64,000 bases of DNA, taken from Gammaproteobacteria bacterium. Lineage in GTDB: Bacteria > Pseudomonadota > Gammaproteobacteria > Xanthomonadales > Wenzhouxiangellaceae. The stretch is from positions 1 to 64,000 of the forward strand of contig JAHJQV010000005.1 in NCBI GenBank assembly GCA_018819105.1, written 5' to 3'. Positions 53,554-58,619 of the stretch are shown one piece after another (position 1 is the stretch's first letter; each line of letters opens with the position of its first letter). The position numbers and the translations under genes were made by a program. The notes under the pieces are model-generated. The model did no database searches and was not told the origin of the DNA. It was given only the letters and a program-made list of their open reading frames with translations.

Positions 53554-55146
53554 ATGCAGAGATACCGTGCCATGGCCGCCATGTTTGCAGGCATTGCCAT
53601 CACAGGTGTTGCCATCACAGATATTGTGCGTGCCGGCAGTCTGGTGCAGACCGCAGCACTTGCCGCTGCTGCGCCGATACAGTTTGCCGATGTGACCGTC
53701 AGTGCCGGCATCGCGCAGCCGCACACCGGCACTTATTTTATTACCGGACAGGCCTGGGGCGATGTCGACAACGATGGCTGGATTGACCTGTATCTGACCA
53801 CTGCTCAGGGTGCCAACACTTTGTATCGCAATCGTGGCGATGGCACTTTCGCTGTTTCTGCCTACGCAGACCAGGTTGCCCTGGCAGACCGCGACAGTGG
53901 TGGCGTCACCTTTGTTGATTTTGATAATGATGGCTGGCTGGATTTGCTGGTGCTCAATGATGGGCATGATGTGCTGCTCCGCAACACCGGATCAGGTTTT
54001 ATCGATGTCACTGCCAGCGTTGGGCTGGATGCACACCAGGGGCGTGGGGAATCCGCAGCCTGGGCCGATTTCAATCGTGATGGCTATCTTGATCTGTACA
54101 TCGTCAACTGGTTTGATGAAGATGAGAGCAATCCAAACCGCCAGGACAGACTGTATCTGAATCAGCAGGGTAAATCCTTTATTGACGTGTCCACTGTGCT
54201 GGACCCTGTCATCATGTCTCGGCCGGGGTTTGCCGCAGTGTTCGTGGACTTTGATCGTGACAGTGATCAGGATCTGTATGTGGTGAATGACAAGCTGTTC
54301 GGCAATGTACTCTGGCGCAATGATGGGCCCGGTTGCGGAGTCTGGTGCTTTACCGACGTATCTGCCATAACGGGAGCCCAGCGGCCCGCTTACGCCATGG
54401 GTGTCGCTGTCGCCGACTACGATCTCGACAGCGATTATGATCTGTATTTCTCCAGCATCGGTGAATCGATTCTGCTGCAGAATCAGCTCGATCAGGGACA
54501 GCCAGCATTCATTGACGTGGCAGCCGATACCGGTGTGTTCACCACCGCGGTGAGCTGGGGCACATTCTTTGCCGATTTTGACAACGACGGTCACGAAGAT
54601 CTTTATCTCGCCACTGCAAATGCTGATCCGGCACAGTCGGACCGCCTCTATCACAATCTGGGTCAGGGACAGTTTGCGGATGTTTCGGTTGCATCGGGCG
54701 CTTCCAATCCGTCCACCACCATCGGCGCTGCCTATGCCGATTATGACGGCGATGGCAGAATGGATTTTGTGGCGGGCAACTTCAATCAGGGTTACCGTTT
54801 GTATCGCAACATCAGCGAGTCAGCAGACCAGCACTGGCTGAGTGTGGACGTGGAGGCAGCGGGACGGTTTGATGCCGCCGCAGTGGGCACTGAAGTCGTG
54901 CTGTACCTGGACGATGGCGCCAACATCAGGCGCCATCGTCATCTGGGCTCCAGCATTGGTGGCAACCATCAGCCAGCATTACATTTCGGCCTTGGGCAGC
55001 GGCTCGTGACGCAACTGGAAGTCATCTGGCCAGATGGCAGCAAACAAACCCATGAAGTGACCGCGAACAATACCAGTCTGACGTATCGCTACAGTCCGGA
55101 ACAGGCCATTTTCAGTGATGGTTTTGAAGCGGCCACAATGCAGTGA
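53554..55146 (+). CDS. Secreted FG-GAP/VCBS repeat protein with UnbV/ASPIC domain
   Basis: A 530-residue exported protein. After an N-terminal hydrophobic signal (AMAAMFAGIAITGVAITDIV) come about seven repeats with calcium-binding DxDxDGxxDL loops, such as DVDNDGWIDLYL, DFDNDGWLDLLVL and DYDGDGRMDFVAG, forming a beta propeller. The C-terminal part (SSIGGNHQPALHFGLGQ, LEVIWPDGSKQTHEV) matches the UnbV/ASPIC domain seen in CRTAC1-like proteins. It ends AIFSDGFEAATMQ, sharing FxDGFE with the protein at 46764. Probably cell-surface or extracellular, function unknown. Confidence 0.85.
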   Translation: MQRYRAMAAMFAGIAITGVAITDIVRAGSLVQTAALAAAAPIQFADVTVSAGIAQPHTGTYFITGQAWGDVDNDGWIDLYLTTAQGANTLYRNRGDGTFAVSAYADQVALADRDSGGVTFVDFDNDGWLDLLVLNDGHDVLLRNTGSGFIDVTASVGLDAHQGRGESAAWADFNRDGYLDLYIVNWFDEDESNPNRQDRLYLNQQGKSFIDVSTVLDPVIMSRPGFAAVFVDFDRDSDQDLYVVNDKLFGNVLWRNDGPGCGVWCFTDVSAITGAQRPAYAMGVAVADYDLDSDYDLYFSSIGESILLQNQLDQGQPAFIDVAADTGVFTTAVSWGTFFADFDNDGHEDLYLATANADPAQSDRLYHNLGQGQFADVSVASGASNPSTTIGAAYADYDGDGRMDFVAGNFNQGYRLYRNISESADQHWLSVDVEAAGRFDAAAVGTEVVLYLDDGANIRRHRHLGSSIGGNHQPALHFGLGQRLVTQLEVIWPDGSKQTHEVTANNTSLTYRYSPEQAIFSDGFEAATMQ

Positions 55147-55265
55147 TTGTCAACAGATCGTTAACTGTGCTAGTCTAATGATGGTTGCTGCAAGCAAATG
55201 GATTGCGCTGGCAACATTGGTTACAGTGTTTTTCAACGTATGCGCATATGCGACGGGGTAATCTC

Positions 55266-56138
55266 ATGAATGATCTGACAAAACTTCTGCTGGCGCTGGC
55301 CATGTTTGCCGGCGTTGTGCAGGCACAAGAGCCCAAGGACCCGGCATCGTCTGGCCAGTCTGTGGCACCTTTGTTTGGCGTTGGCGGTGGGCCTGACGCT
55401 TTCGGCTACACCTTTACCGACTCATCGGCTGGCAACTGCGCCTTCCAGTTTATCGACATCAGCGCCACCGGCACCCAGGTGGTCAGTGGCGATGACGCCG
55501 GATCGGCACCAATAGCGCTGCAGGGGCCGTTCAATTTCTATGGAGATGACCTGACCGACATCGTCATGACCTCCAACGGAGCTCTGTCGACCGATCTGAC
55601 CGACACCGGCGGTGATCTGTCCAATGACTGTCCATTACCTGTTATACCTAGCACCAGCGGTGGTGCCAGAATCTATCCATTGCATGATGATCTGATTACC
55701 AACAATGGCCTGTTTGAATACTTTCCGGTATGTCCGCGACCGTCGGATCAGTTCCCCGCTGCCGATCTGGGCTGCCATGTATTCCATTATGACGAATCCA
55801 CACATTTTGGCGACACCGTGGCTTTTGACACACAGGTCATCCTGTATGACAACAGCTTTGAAATTGTCTTTCAGCATGATGACCGCAATCCGGAAGCGGG
55901 CAGTGGTTCCACCACCGGTATCCAGAACGCGGCCGCTGACATCGGCCTGACTTTTGCCTGTGATGCGGCTGCCAGCATTCCGGCAAACTCGGCCCAGTGT
56001 TTCAGGCACCCGACACCGGATGTTGCAGTGCTGCCACCACCACCGGCCGTGCCGACCATGACGACCTGGGGCATGATTGCCATGGCGCTGGCACTGATGG
56101 TGCTGGGCTCGCTGATCATGCGTCGCCGCGCCAACTGA
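55266..56138 (+). CDS. Exported protein with IPTL-CTERM-like sorting tail
   Basis: A 290-residue protein with a signal peptide (LLLALAMFAGVVQAQ), a beta-rich middle with paired cysteines, a Pro-rich linker (LPPPPAVP) and a C-terminal VPTMTTWGMIAMALALMVLG helix followed by MRRR. This Pro-x-x-x-x-WG, transmembrane helix, Arg cluster layout is the IPTL-CTERM sorting signal, thought to be handled by a dedicated exosortase-like system and linked to surface display. The start ATG at 55266 follows GGGG; a reading from 55185 is less likely. A terminator follows. Confidence 0.8.
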   Translation: MNDLTKLLLALAMFAGVVQAQEPKDPASSGQSVAPLFGVGGGPDAFGYTFTDSSAGNCAFQFIDISATGTQVVSGDDAGSAPIALQGPFNFYGDDLTDIVMTSNGALSTDLTDTGGDLSNDCPLPVIPSTSGGARIYPLHDDLITNNGLFEYFPVCPRPSDQFPAADLGCHVFHYDESTHFGDTVAFDTQVILYDNSFEIVFQHDDRNPEAGSGSTTGIQNAAADIGLTFACDAAASIPANSAQCFRHPTPDVAVLPPPPAVPTMTTWGMIAMALALMVLGSLIMRRRAN

Positions 56139-56841: not shown

Positions 56842-57333
56842 ATGAACATGAGCAAATCCCTGCGTGACAAACTGATGTTGCTGTTCTTCGTCGTACTGGC
56901 GCTGGGGGTGGGCAGTGCTTCCGGTCGCTACTTCAGCGCCGGCGACTGGTACGATCACATCAACAAACCTTTCTTCAATCCGCCGGACTGGATTTTTGCA
57001 CCGGTCTGGACACTGCTGTTTCTGCTCATGGGCATTGCCGCCTGGCTGGTCTGGCGCGGTGCGGTGAGCCTGTTCCGTGACCGTGCACTGCTCTGGTGGG
57101 GAATACAGCTGGCGCTGAACGTGACCTGGAGCGCACTGTTTTTCGGACTGCACCGCACCGGTTGGGCAATGGCCGAACTGGCGCTGCTGTGGCTGGCCAT
57201 TCTGATGACGCTGTTGTACAGCTGGCGCGTCAACCGTGTGGCCGGCATGCTGTATGTGCCTTATCTGGCCTGGGTCAGCTTCGCCTGGGTTCTCAATGTG
57301 GCCATCTGGCGTCTCAATGGCGGCTGGTTTTGA
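56842..57333 (+). CDS. tspO: Tryptophan-rich sensory protein TspO
   Basis: A 163-residue membrane protein with five helices, the TspO/MBR family. KPFFNPPDWIFAPVWTLLFL is the family hallmark, and later ALNVTWSALFFGLH and YVPYLAWVSFAWVLN hold the conserved Trp and Asn residues. TspO binds porphyrins; in Rhodobacter sphaeroides it lowers photosynthesis gene expression in oxygen. That role is plausible here given the photosynthesis cluster, though the gene is 35 kb away. Follows the AhpD-like gene after 11 bp. Confidence 0.92.
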   Translation: MNMSKSLRDKLMLLFFVVLALGVGSASGRYFSAGDWYDHINKPFFNPPDWIFAPVWTLLFLLMGIAAWLVWRGAVSLFRDRALLWWGIQLALNVTWSALFFGLHRTGWAMAELALLWLAILMTLLYSWRVNRVAGMLYVPYLAWVSFAWVLNVAIWRLNGGWF

Positions 57334-57349: not shown

Positions 57350-57682
57350 TTACTTGACTTTGACAAGACCGAGCTGGATTCTGAGCGCACGCTCTATCTC
57401 AGTCAGTTCATGACGGTCGATGCTTCCCAGGCGCGTGCCCAGACGCTGTTTGGAGACGGTTGCGATCTGATCAGCCATGGCCTTGGCCAGTTTGCCATGG
57501 ATGTGAACATAGGCTTCGCATGGATACAGCCGATCAACATTGGAAGTCAACGGAACCATCTGAATGCGGTTCAGTGCTTTGTTCGCAGCGTTGTTGCTGG
57601 CGATGACAACAGGTCGGGTTTTTCTGATTTCCCCACCGATGGCTGGATCAAAACCAATACAGCACACTTCACCACAGCGCAT
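57350..57682 (-). CDS. mazF: MazF/PemK-family endoribonuclease toxin
   Basis: A 110-residue MazF/PemK-type toxin, an mRNA-cleaving SH3-like barrel. It starts MRCGEVCCIGFDPAIGGEIR and continues KTRPVVIASNNAAN, the conserved G-E-I-x-K-x-R-P-V-V core with the catalytic Arg. AYVHIHGKLAKAMADQIATV and LTEIERALRIQLGL complete the fold, so the gene looks intact. It starts 14 bp inside the end of the antitoxin gene. That antitoxin has a premature stop, so the toxin is either inactive by other means, poorly expressed, or neutralised from elsewhere. Confidence 0.88.
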   Translation of the reverse strand: MRCGEVCCIGFDPAIGGEIRKTRPVVIASNNAANKALNRIQMVPLTSNVDRLYPCEAYVHIHGKLAKAMADQIATVSKQRLGTRLGSIDRHELTEIERALRIQLGLVKVK

Positions 57683-57899
57683 GGTCTGGGGCAGTGAGGG
57701 TTTGTTCTGACCAGGCCAATGCTGCAGATTCTCGTTCGGAATCCTCGGCCATGGCTGTATAGGCGCTGAGCAATTCCTGCTCCAGCACATGCGGGCGAGC
57801 CAGATCTTCAAGAAATCTGCTTATGCGGCGTGGCCCTACATATTGTTAGAGACCAGCGTAGACTTTTTCAGAAATGGAAATGGTGAGCTTTTTCTGCAT
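57669..57899 (-). pseudogene. MazE-type antitoxin interrupted by an in-frame stop
   Basis: Read from ATG 57899 the sequence gives MQKKLTISISEKVYAGL, then TAA at 57848-57846 (codon 18), then continues in the same frame as QYVGPRRISRFLEDLARP and on to AEDSERESAALAWSEQTL, ending at a TGA at 57669. The whole 77-codon frame matches MazE-like antitoxins that precede this kind of toxin, where a Tyr is expected at codon 18 (TAC/TAT). The rest is undamaged, so the change is recent, or the read is wrong, or readthrough happens. A CATT-x-TACGTA-x-AATG dyad (57897-57912) at the start could be the operator. Confidence 0.8.
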
Positions 57900-57950
57900 T
57901 ATACGTACAATGCACGTGAAACAATTGCCTGTCAAATTTGGCAGTGAAGA

Positions 57951-58619
57951 TCAGCGTCCCAGTATGCTTTTCGCCGCCTTGATGGCGCTGGCATCGTCCG
58001 GCCGCTCGGGCACTGCCACACCACGCTGCACGGCTGGTCGCTGACCGACCCGCTGCAGCCAGCTGGACAGATACTGCAGCCCGTCCAGGCTCACGCCGCT
58101 CCAGTTGTGAATGCGTACCCAGGGCCAGGTGGCGATGTCGGCAATGCTGTAATCTCCGGCCAGGTAGTCGTGCTGGCGCAGATGTGAGTCCATCACTTCG
58201 TACAGACGGCGGGTCTCACGCTGATAGCGCTGAATCGCTGCCGGAATGTGTTGGGGAAAATAACGCGTAAACACATTGGCCTGGCCCTGCATGGGCCCGA
58301 CGCCACCCATCTGGAACATCAGCCACTGCATGACACGCGAACGCGCCTTGCGCTCGCCGGGCAGCAGGCGGCCGGTTTTTTCGGCCAGATAGATGAGGAT
58401 CGCCCCGGACTCGAACACGGCGAAATCGTCCGCATCGCGATCAACGATGGCGGGGATGCGGCCGTTCGGGTTGATCGCCAGAAAGGCTGCCGACTTCTGT
58501 TCCAGAGTGCCCAGATTGAGCGCATGCACACGGTAATCCAGCCCCAGTTCCTCCAGCATGATGGAGACTTTGTGACCATTGGGTGTGGCGGCGGTAAATA
58601 AATCAATCATGTCGATCAA
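57951..58619 (-). CDS. Glutathione S-transferase family protein (YfcG-like)
   Basis: A 222-residue GST. The thioredoxin-like domain has [20 protein letters not shown], where the TxNGxK pattern is typical of the YfcG/YghU (Nu) class, and [17 protein letters not shown] for glutathione binding. The helical domain includes [17 protein letters not shown], the N-capping motif. Likely a disulfide-bond reductase rather than a classic transferase. ATG at 58610 is an alternative start. Confidence 0.88.

Follow-up and report, generated by a model that had tools for sequence, protein, structure and literature searches.

An interrupted antitoxin gene upstream of an open MazF/PemK-family frame

The locus lies in a contig of a Gammaproteobacteria genome (JAHJQV010000005.1), the first 64,000 nucleotides of which were analyzed and are referred to here as the window. 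On the minus strand, a 76-codon gene for an RHH-type, MazE-like antitoxin (57669 to 57899) is followed by a 110-amino-acid MazF/PemK-family toxin frame (57350 to 57682), with an overlap of 14 nt (57669 to 57682). The pair is flanked by a glutathione S-transferase-like (GST) gene on the same strand (57951 to 58619) and by a TspO/MBR gene on the plus strand (56842 to 57333), both assigned by profile match and synteny. The antitoxin was recognized from its translation, from the family alignment, and from an NCBIfam MazE match that is weak for the window copy and stronger for its intact relatives.

Translated on the minus strand from 57899 to 57669, the 231-nt antitoxin frame reads MQKKLTISISEKVYAGL, an in-frame stop, QYVGPRRISRFLEDLARPHVLEQELLSAYTAMAEDSERESAALAWSEQTLTAPDHALW, and the terminal stop, in agreement with the first-pass annotation, which had placed a TAA at 57848 to 57846; this triplet is codon 18. 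The same annotation had put the toxin start 14 bp before the end of the antitoxin frame, an arrangement that proved to be identical in annotated relatives on five plasmids. Given that these relatives share both the 231-nt antitoxin and the 14-nt overlap, the frame and its length in the window are not accidental. Thus, the upstream position and the overlap expected of such an antitoxin are retained, but the gene is interrupted at codon 18 and is classified here as a pseudogene.

The family alignment revealed no frameshift in the antitoxin and departures from only 2 of 24 conserved sites, which argues that the stop is a recent lesion; the sequence 3′ of the stop is well conserved. In all likelihood the stop codon is genuine, and the rest of the antitoxin beyond this one interruption may still be of functional use. 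Tyrosine, named in the first-pass annotation for the position of the stop, is present in 9 of the 20 relatives, whereas the other 11 carry His (six) or Gln, Lys, Arg, Trp, or Cys (one each), and the relatives with the closest toxins mostly have His, Gln, or Lys. The ancestral residue is therefore uncertain. The interrupted gene is the single copy of this antitoxin family in the genome, with no second one found at E values up to 10. Among 60 related genomes, no DNA-level relatives of the operon were detected apart from the window itself, and a PADLOC run returned no match. A literature search for antitoxins with a premature stop next to an intact toxin found no matching report.

The toxin retains its catalytic residues and departs from the family at its N terminus

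The toxin frame starts with ATG at 57682, is open to 57350, and matches the Pfam PemK_toxin profile (PF02452) with 75.2 bits against a cutoff of 23.1. The catalytic and RNA-contact residues of MazF are all present (G16, E18, R23, T46, D71, and Q72); in MazF proteins studied elsewhere, the equivalent Gly, Glu, Arg, and Thr have been shown to be important for activity (PMC8634880; PMC8086154). The description of the toxin as undamaged thus holds for its reading frame and catalytic residues, but not for its N-terminal strand, where R3C, W7C, and W8C replace invariant or nearly invariant residues: in place of the conserved RGE-(I/V)-W/aromatic motif, the window toxin reads RCGEVCC. When conserved sites are defined as positions conserved in ≥90% of the other family members, the toxin departs from 9 of 43, the highest number among 23 family members (0 to 7 in the others), and these three substitutions are the radical ones among the nine. 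L047 and L040, two family members whose sequences are isolated to a similar extent, have seven departures each, at most two of them radical.

A wider alignment covered 33 PemK homologs, including one E. coli MazF sequence. Cys is absent from positions 7 and 8 throughout, and in 29 of the homologs one of the two positions is aromatic or His; the 29 homologs in which position 3 aligns all have Arg there. As judged from the primary structure, the active site appears intact, unlike the N-terminal strand, and we infer that the three substitutions reduce toxin activity. An AlphaFold model of the toxin built from seven sequences was unusable (pLDDT, 38.7).

The antitoxin leader is short, and neither gene has a Shine-Dalgarno sequence

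The region around the antitoxin start, which the first-pass annotation had not commented on, is abnormal as well. In many relatives, a pair of TACGTA-like cores with a spacing of about 11 bp precedes the antitoxin ATG, and 17 to 30 nt separate the nearer core from it. The window has a pair of operator-like cores with the same spacing on the minus strand, TACGTA (57902 to 57907) and, 11 nt upstream, CACGTG (57913 to 57918), but the nearer core is 8 nt from the ATG (≥17 nt in the relatives). The leader therefore looks shortened, as if a piece had been cut out.

Shine-Dalgarno sequences are absent from both the antitoxin (anti-Shine-Dalgarno energy, +0.6 kcal/mol) and the toxin (+0.4 kcal/mol), whereas in most relatives such a sequence precedes the antitoxin, the toxin, or both. 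Relatives without such sites exist: L010 and L049 have intact antitoxins, yet no Shine-Dalgarno sequence for the toxin, and L047 also lacks the antitoxin site. Translational coupling combined with a weak start is thus plausible, but not specific to the window copy. Because the toxin start lies inside the antitoxin gene and has no ribosome site of its own, its translation should rely on ribosomes that have come along the antitoxin frame; judging from this gene order, the stop at codon 18 would take away the ribosomes that couple the two genes. The scan for sigma-70-like promoters yielded none at 9/12, promoter and terminator scans gave nothing beyond chance level, and RNA folding of the operon start indicated no special structure (z = −0.06).

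Relatives of the module

The locus is a known kind of module. The closest systems are plasmid modules of Acidithiobacillus, Limnohabitans, Azotobacter, Hydrogenophilus, and E. coli (NZ_AP025161, NZ_AP027057, NZ_CP066314, NZ_AP018559, and CP061001), in which a MazF/PemK toxin is paired with an RHH-type, MazE-like antitoxin. These share with the window copy the gene order, the 231-nt antitoxin, the 14-nt overlap, the TACGTA-type upstream repeats, and about 50% toxin identity; unlike the window copy, they have uninterrupted antitoxins, operators further from the ATG, and toxins with Arg-3 and Trp-7/Trp-8. The MazF-XF1863 family of Makarova et al. (2009), found mainly in proteobacteria and Chlorobi/Bacteroidetes, combines a small strand-helix-helix antitoxin with an adjoining MazF and is a lead by its description (PMC2701414). 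The closest solved structures are those of M. tuberculosis MazF9 (5hjz and 6kyt), which belongs to the same toxin family and aligns over the full length (E ≈ 1e-13); this likeness covers the toxin, and RCGEVC of the window toxin corresponds to RRGEIW in the solved chain.

A remnant of the same module in a sister species

In the one same-genus genome that was compared, the GST and TspO genes occur in the same order, and the interval between them contains a 26-codon fragment of the toxin 3′ end (GKQDKAMSDHIATVSRQRLHKILGTI) with 17 of 26 residues identical to the window toxin (E = 2e-6 within the locus). About 454 bp are absent from the sister genome, namely, the whole antitoxin and the first half of the toxin, the GST and TspO genes forming the boundaries of the deletion. 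The stub (contig C65, 2156 to 2233), all 26 codons of which are family-like, is joined directly to the GST stop codon.

Between the window and the sister genome, the dS of the toxin fragment (1.16) equals that of the flanking genes (1.12 for GST and 1.32 for TspO), indicating that the window toxin and the stub descend from one module at the GST-TspO site. Within the limits set by a fragment of 26 codons, the residues kept (17 of 26) exceed the 12.4 expected for neutral change (P = 0.008), and the toxin was thus under selection for part of that time. Two genomes from a different genus of the family have the GST gene, with no trace of the module beside it.

The locus as a probable decaying chromosomal module

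These observations make it probable that the locus is a vertically inherited, formerly selected chromosomal type II module, in which an RHH-type antitoxin precedes a MazF/PemK endoribonuclease, and that several independent lesions have brought it to an advanced but recent state of decay. The following are directly visible: the nonsense codon in the antitoxin, the shortened leader with its operator abutting the ATG, and the missing Shine-Dalgarno sequences of both genes. Three N-terminal toxin residues are lost as well, and most of the module is deleted in the sister species. Little toxin would be made, since ribosomes halting at codon 18 would not get as far as the toxin start in the overlap, and the toxin produced would be weakened; a cell with little and weakened toxin would not be killed and would need no replacement for the antitoxin. 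The stop is thus probably harmless, the toxin being neither well made nor fully active. For the loss of coupling, the loss of toxicity, and the order of events, this is the course that we infer. Speaking against decay, the toxin frame is full length and retains the catalytic residues, and the antitoxin is little changed apart from its stop.

The first-pass annotation had treated the locus as a paradox, on the grounds that an unopposed toxin should be lethal. An open MazF frame next to an antitoxin interrupted by TAA is indeed present; the fully active, unopposed toxin is not borne out, considering the predicted loss of coupling, the damaged start region, the radical toxin changes, and the loss in the sister species. 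Most likely, the apparent unopposed toxin is an ordinary gene relic. Among the solutions then proposed, silencing or decay fits best, and no trans copy of this antitoxin was found on searching the genome. Base error, reinitiation, and readthrough are less likely possibilities, none of which is needed to explain the locus.

The first of these, an error of base calling or assembly at a codon 18 that is in fact a sense codon in an intact antitoxin, would take a single base change, but we consider it unlikely: the leader lesion, the three substitutions to Cys, and the deletion in the sister species are independent of that base, and the flanking genes read cleanly.

Equally doubtful is internal initiation downstream of the stop, for example, at the in-frame TTG of codon 43 (57771 to 57773, minus strand), by which a C-terminal peptide of about 34 residues would neutralize the toxin and restore coupling, with the DNA-binding half alone being lost. 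The TTG at 57773 is preceded by a GGAG-type site with an anti-Shine-Dalgarno energy of −5.6 kcal/mol; however, 30% of codon shuffles produce a comparable site, and the relatives do not conserve the one at codon 43, which is probably there by chance. E. coli MazE residues 54 to 67, as a peptide, inhibit MazF in vitro (PMC12557383), and a Vitreoscilla filiformis plasmid (NZ_CP022424.1, 132719 to 132844) encodes an antitoxin, annotated as AbrB/MazE/SpoVT, whose C-terminal part matches only residues 35 to 76 of this antitoxin family. That gene adjoins a related MazF, in an apparent swap of the DNA-binding half, and the case suggests that the C-terminal half is separable as the toxin-binding part. 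Conversely, a peptide that lacks the dimerizing RHH part is likely to show weak binding and rapid degradation, and the good conservation after the stop, which would suit a functional peptide, is equally expected if the stop is young. The more specific proposal that the stop splits the two jobs of the antitoxin, with autorepression lost and the C-terminal peptide still neutralizing the toxin, is less probable again; if true, it would make this a MazF module whose control involves no antitoxin repressor.

We give even less credence to a toxin that now acts as a stand-alone, differently controlled ribonuclease for which the antitoxin is dispensable. The intact frame and catalytic residues would fit such a role, and the solitary MazF-mx of Myxococcus provides a precedent (PMC2701414), but the sister species has lost the toxin, three conserved N-terminal residues are replaced, and the frame has no ribosome site of its own. 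Least probable of all is an antitoxin supplied by readthrough, TAA being generally a tight stop, or by an unrelated gene in trans. Other MazF loci of the genome (contigs C7, C49, and C14) do have AbrB-type or RHH-type antitoxins, and cross-neutralization has been reported between noncognate MazEF pairs (PMC10893535), but the antitoxins of these three loci belong to other families, and a second copy of this one is absent.

If the locus is a decaying module, two comparable stages of chromosomal toxin-antitoxin decay can be seen at a single orthologous site, with point lesions and a toxin frame still open in the window copy and with a large deletion and a toxin stub in the sister species. A stop in an antitoxin gene next to an open toxin frame does not, then, necessarily point to a hidden antitoxin, as lost coupling and a weakened toxin can defuse the pair. 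The value of the case is in annotation, and specialists would not be surprised by it.

Other remnants and neighboring genes

Near the end of contig C14 of the same genome (71111 to 71245), an uninterrupted AbrB-type MazE frame precedes a MazF fragment that stop codons interrupt, another MazF locus in decay, here in the usual direction. A survey of E. coli genomes for broken copies of the antitoxin found two genomes with a match, one full and one a fragment, and was dropped as a measure of breakage rate. An E. coli plasmid (NZ_CP024822.1, 99963 to 100064) carries another remnant, a lone antitoxin fragment (residues 6 to 39) with no annotated gene. In the window itself, inspection of the open reading frame list by eye identified, on the plus strand, a long predicted repeat-containing (FG-GAP-like) protein (53554 to 55146) and, after it, a protein whose C terminus carries a sorting tail of the IPTL type (55185 to 56138).
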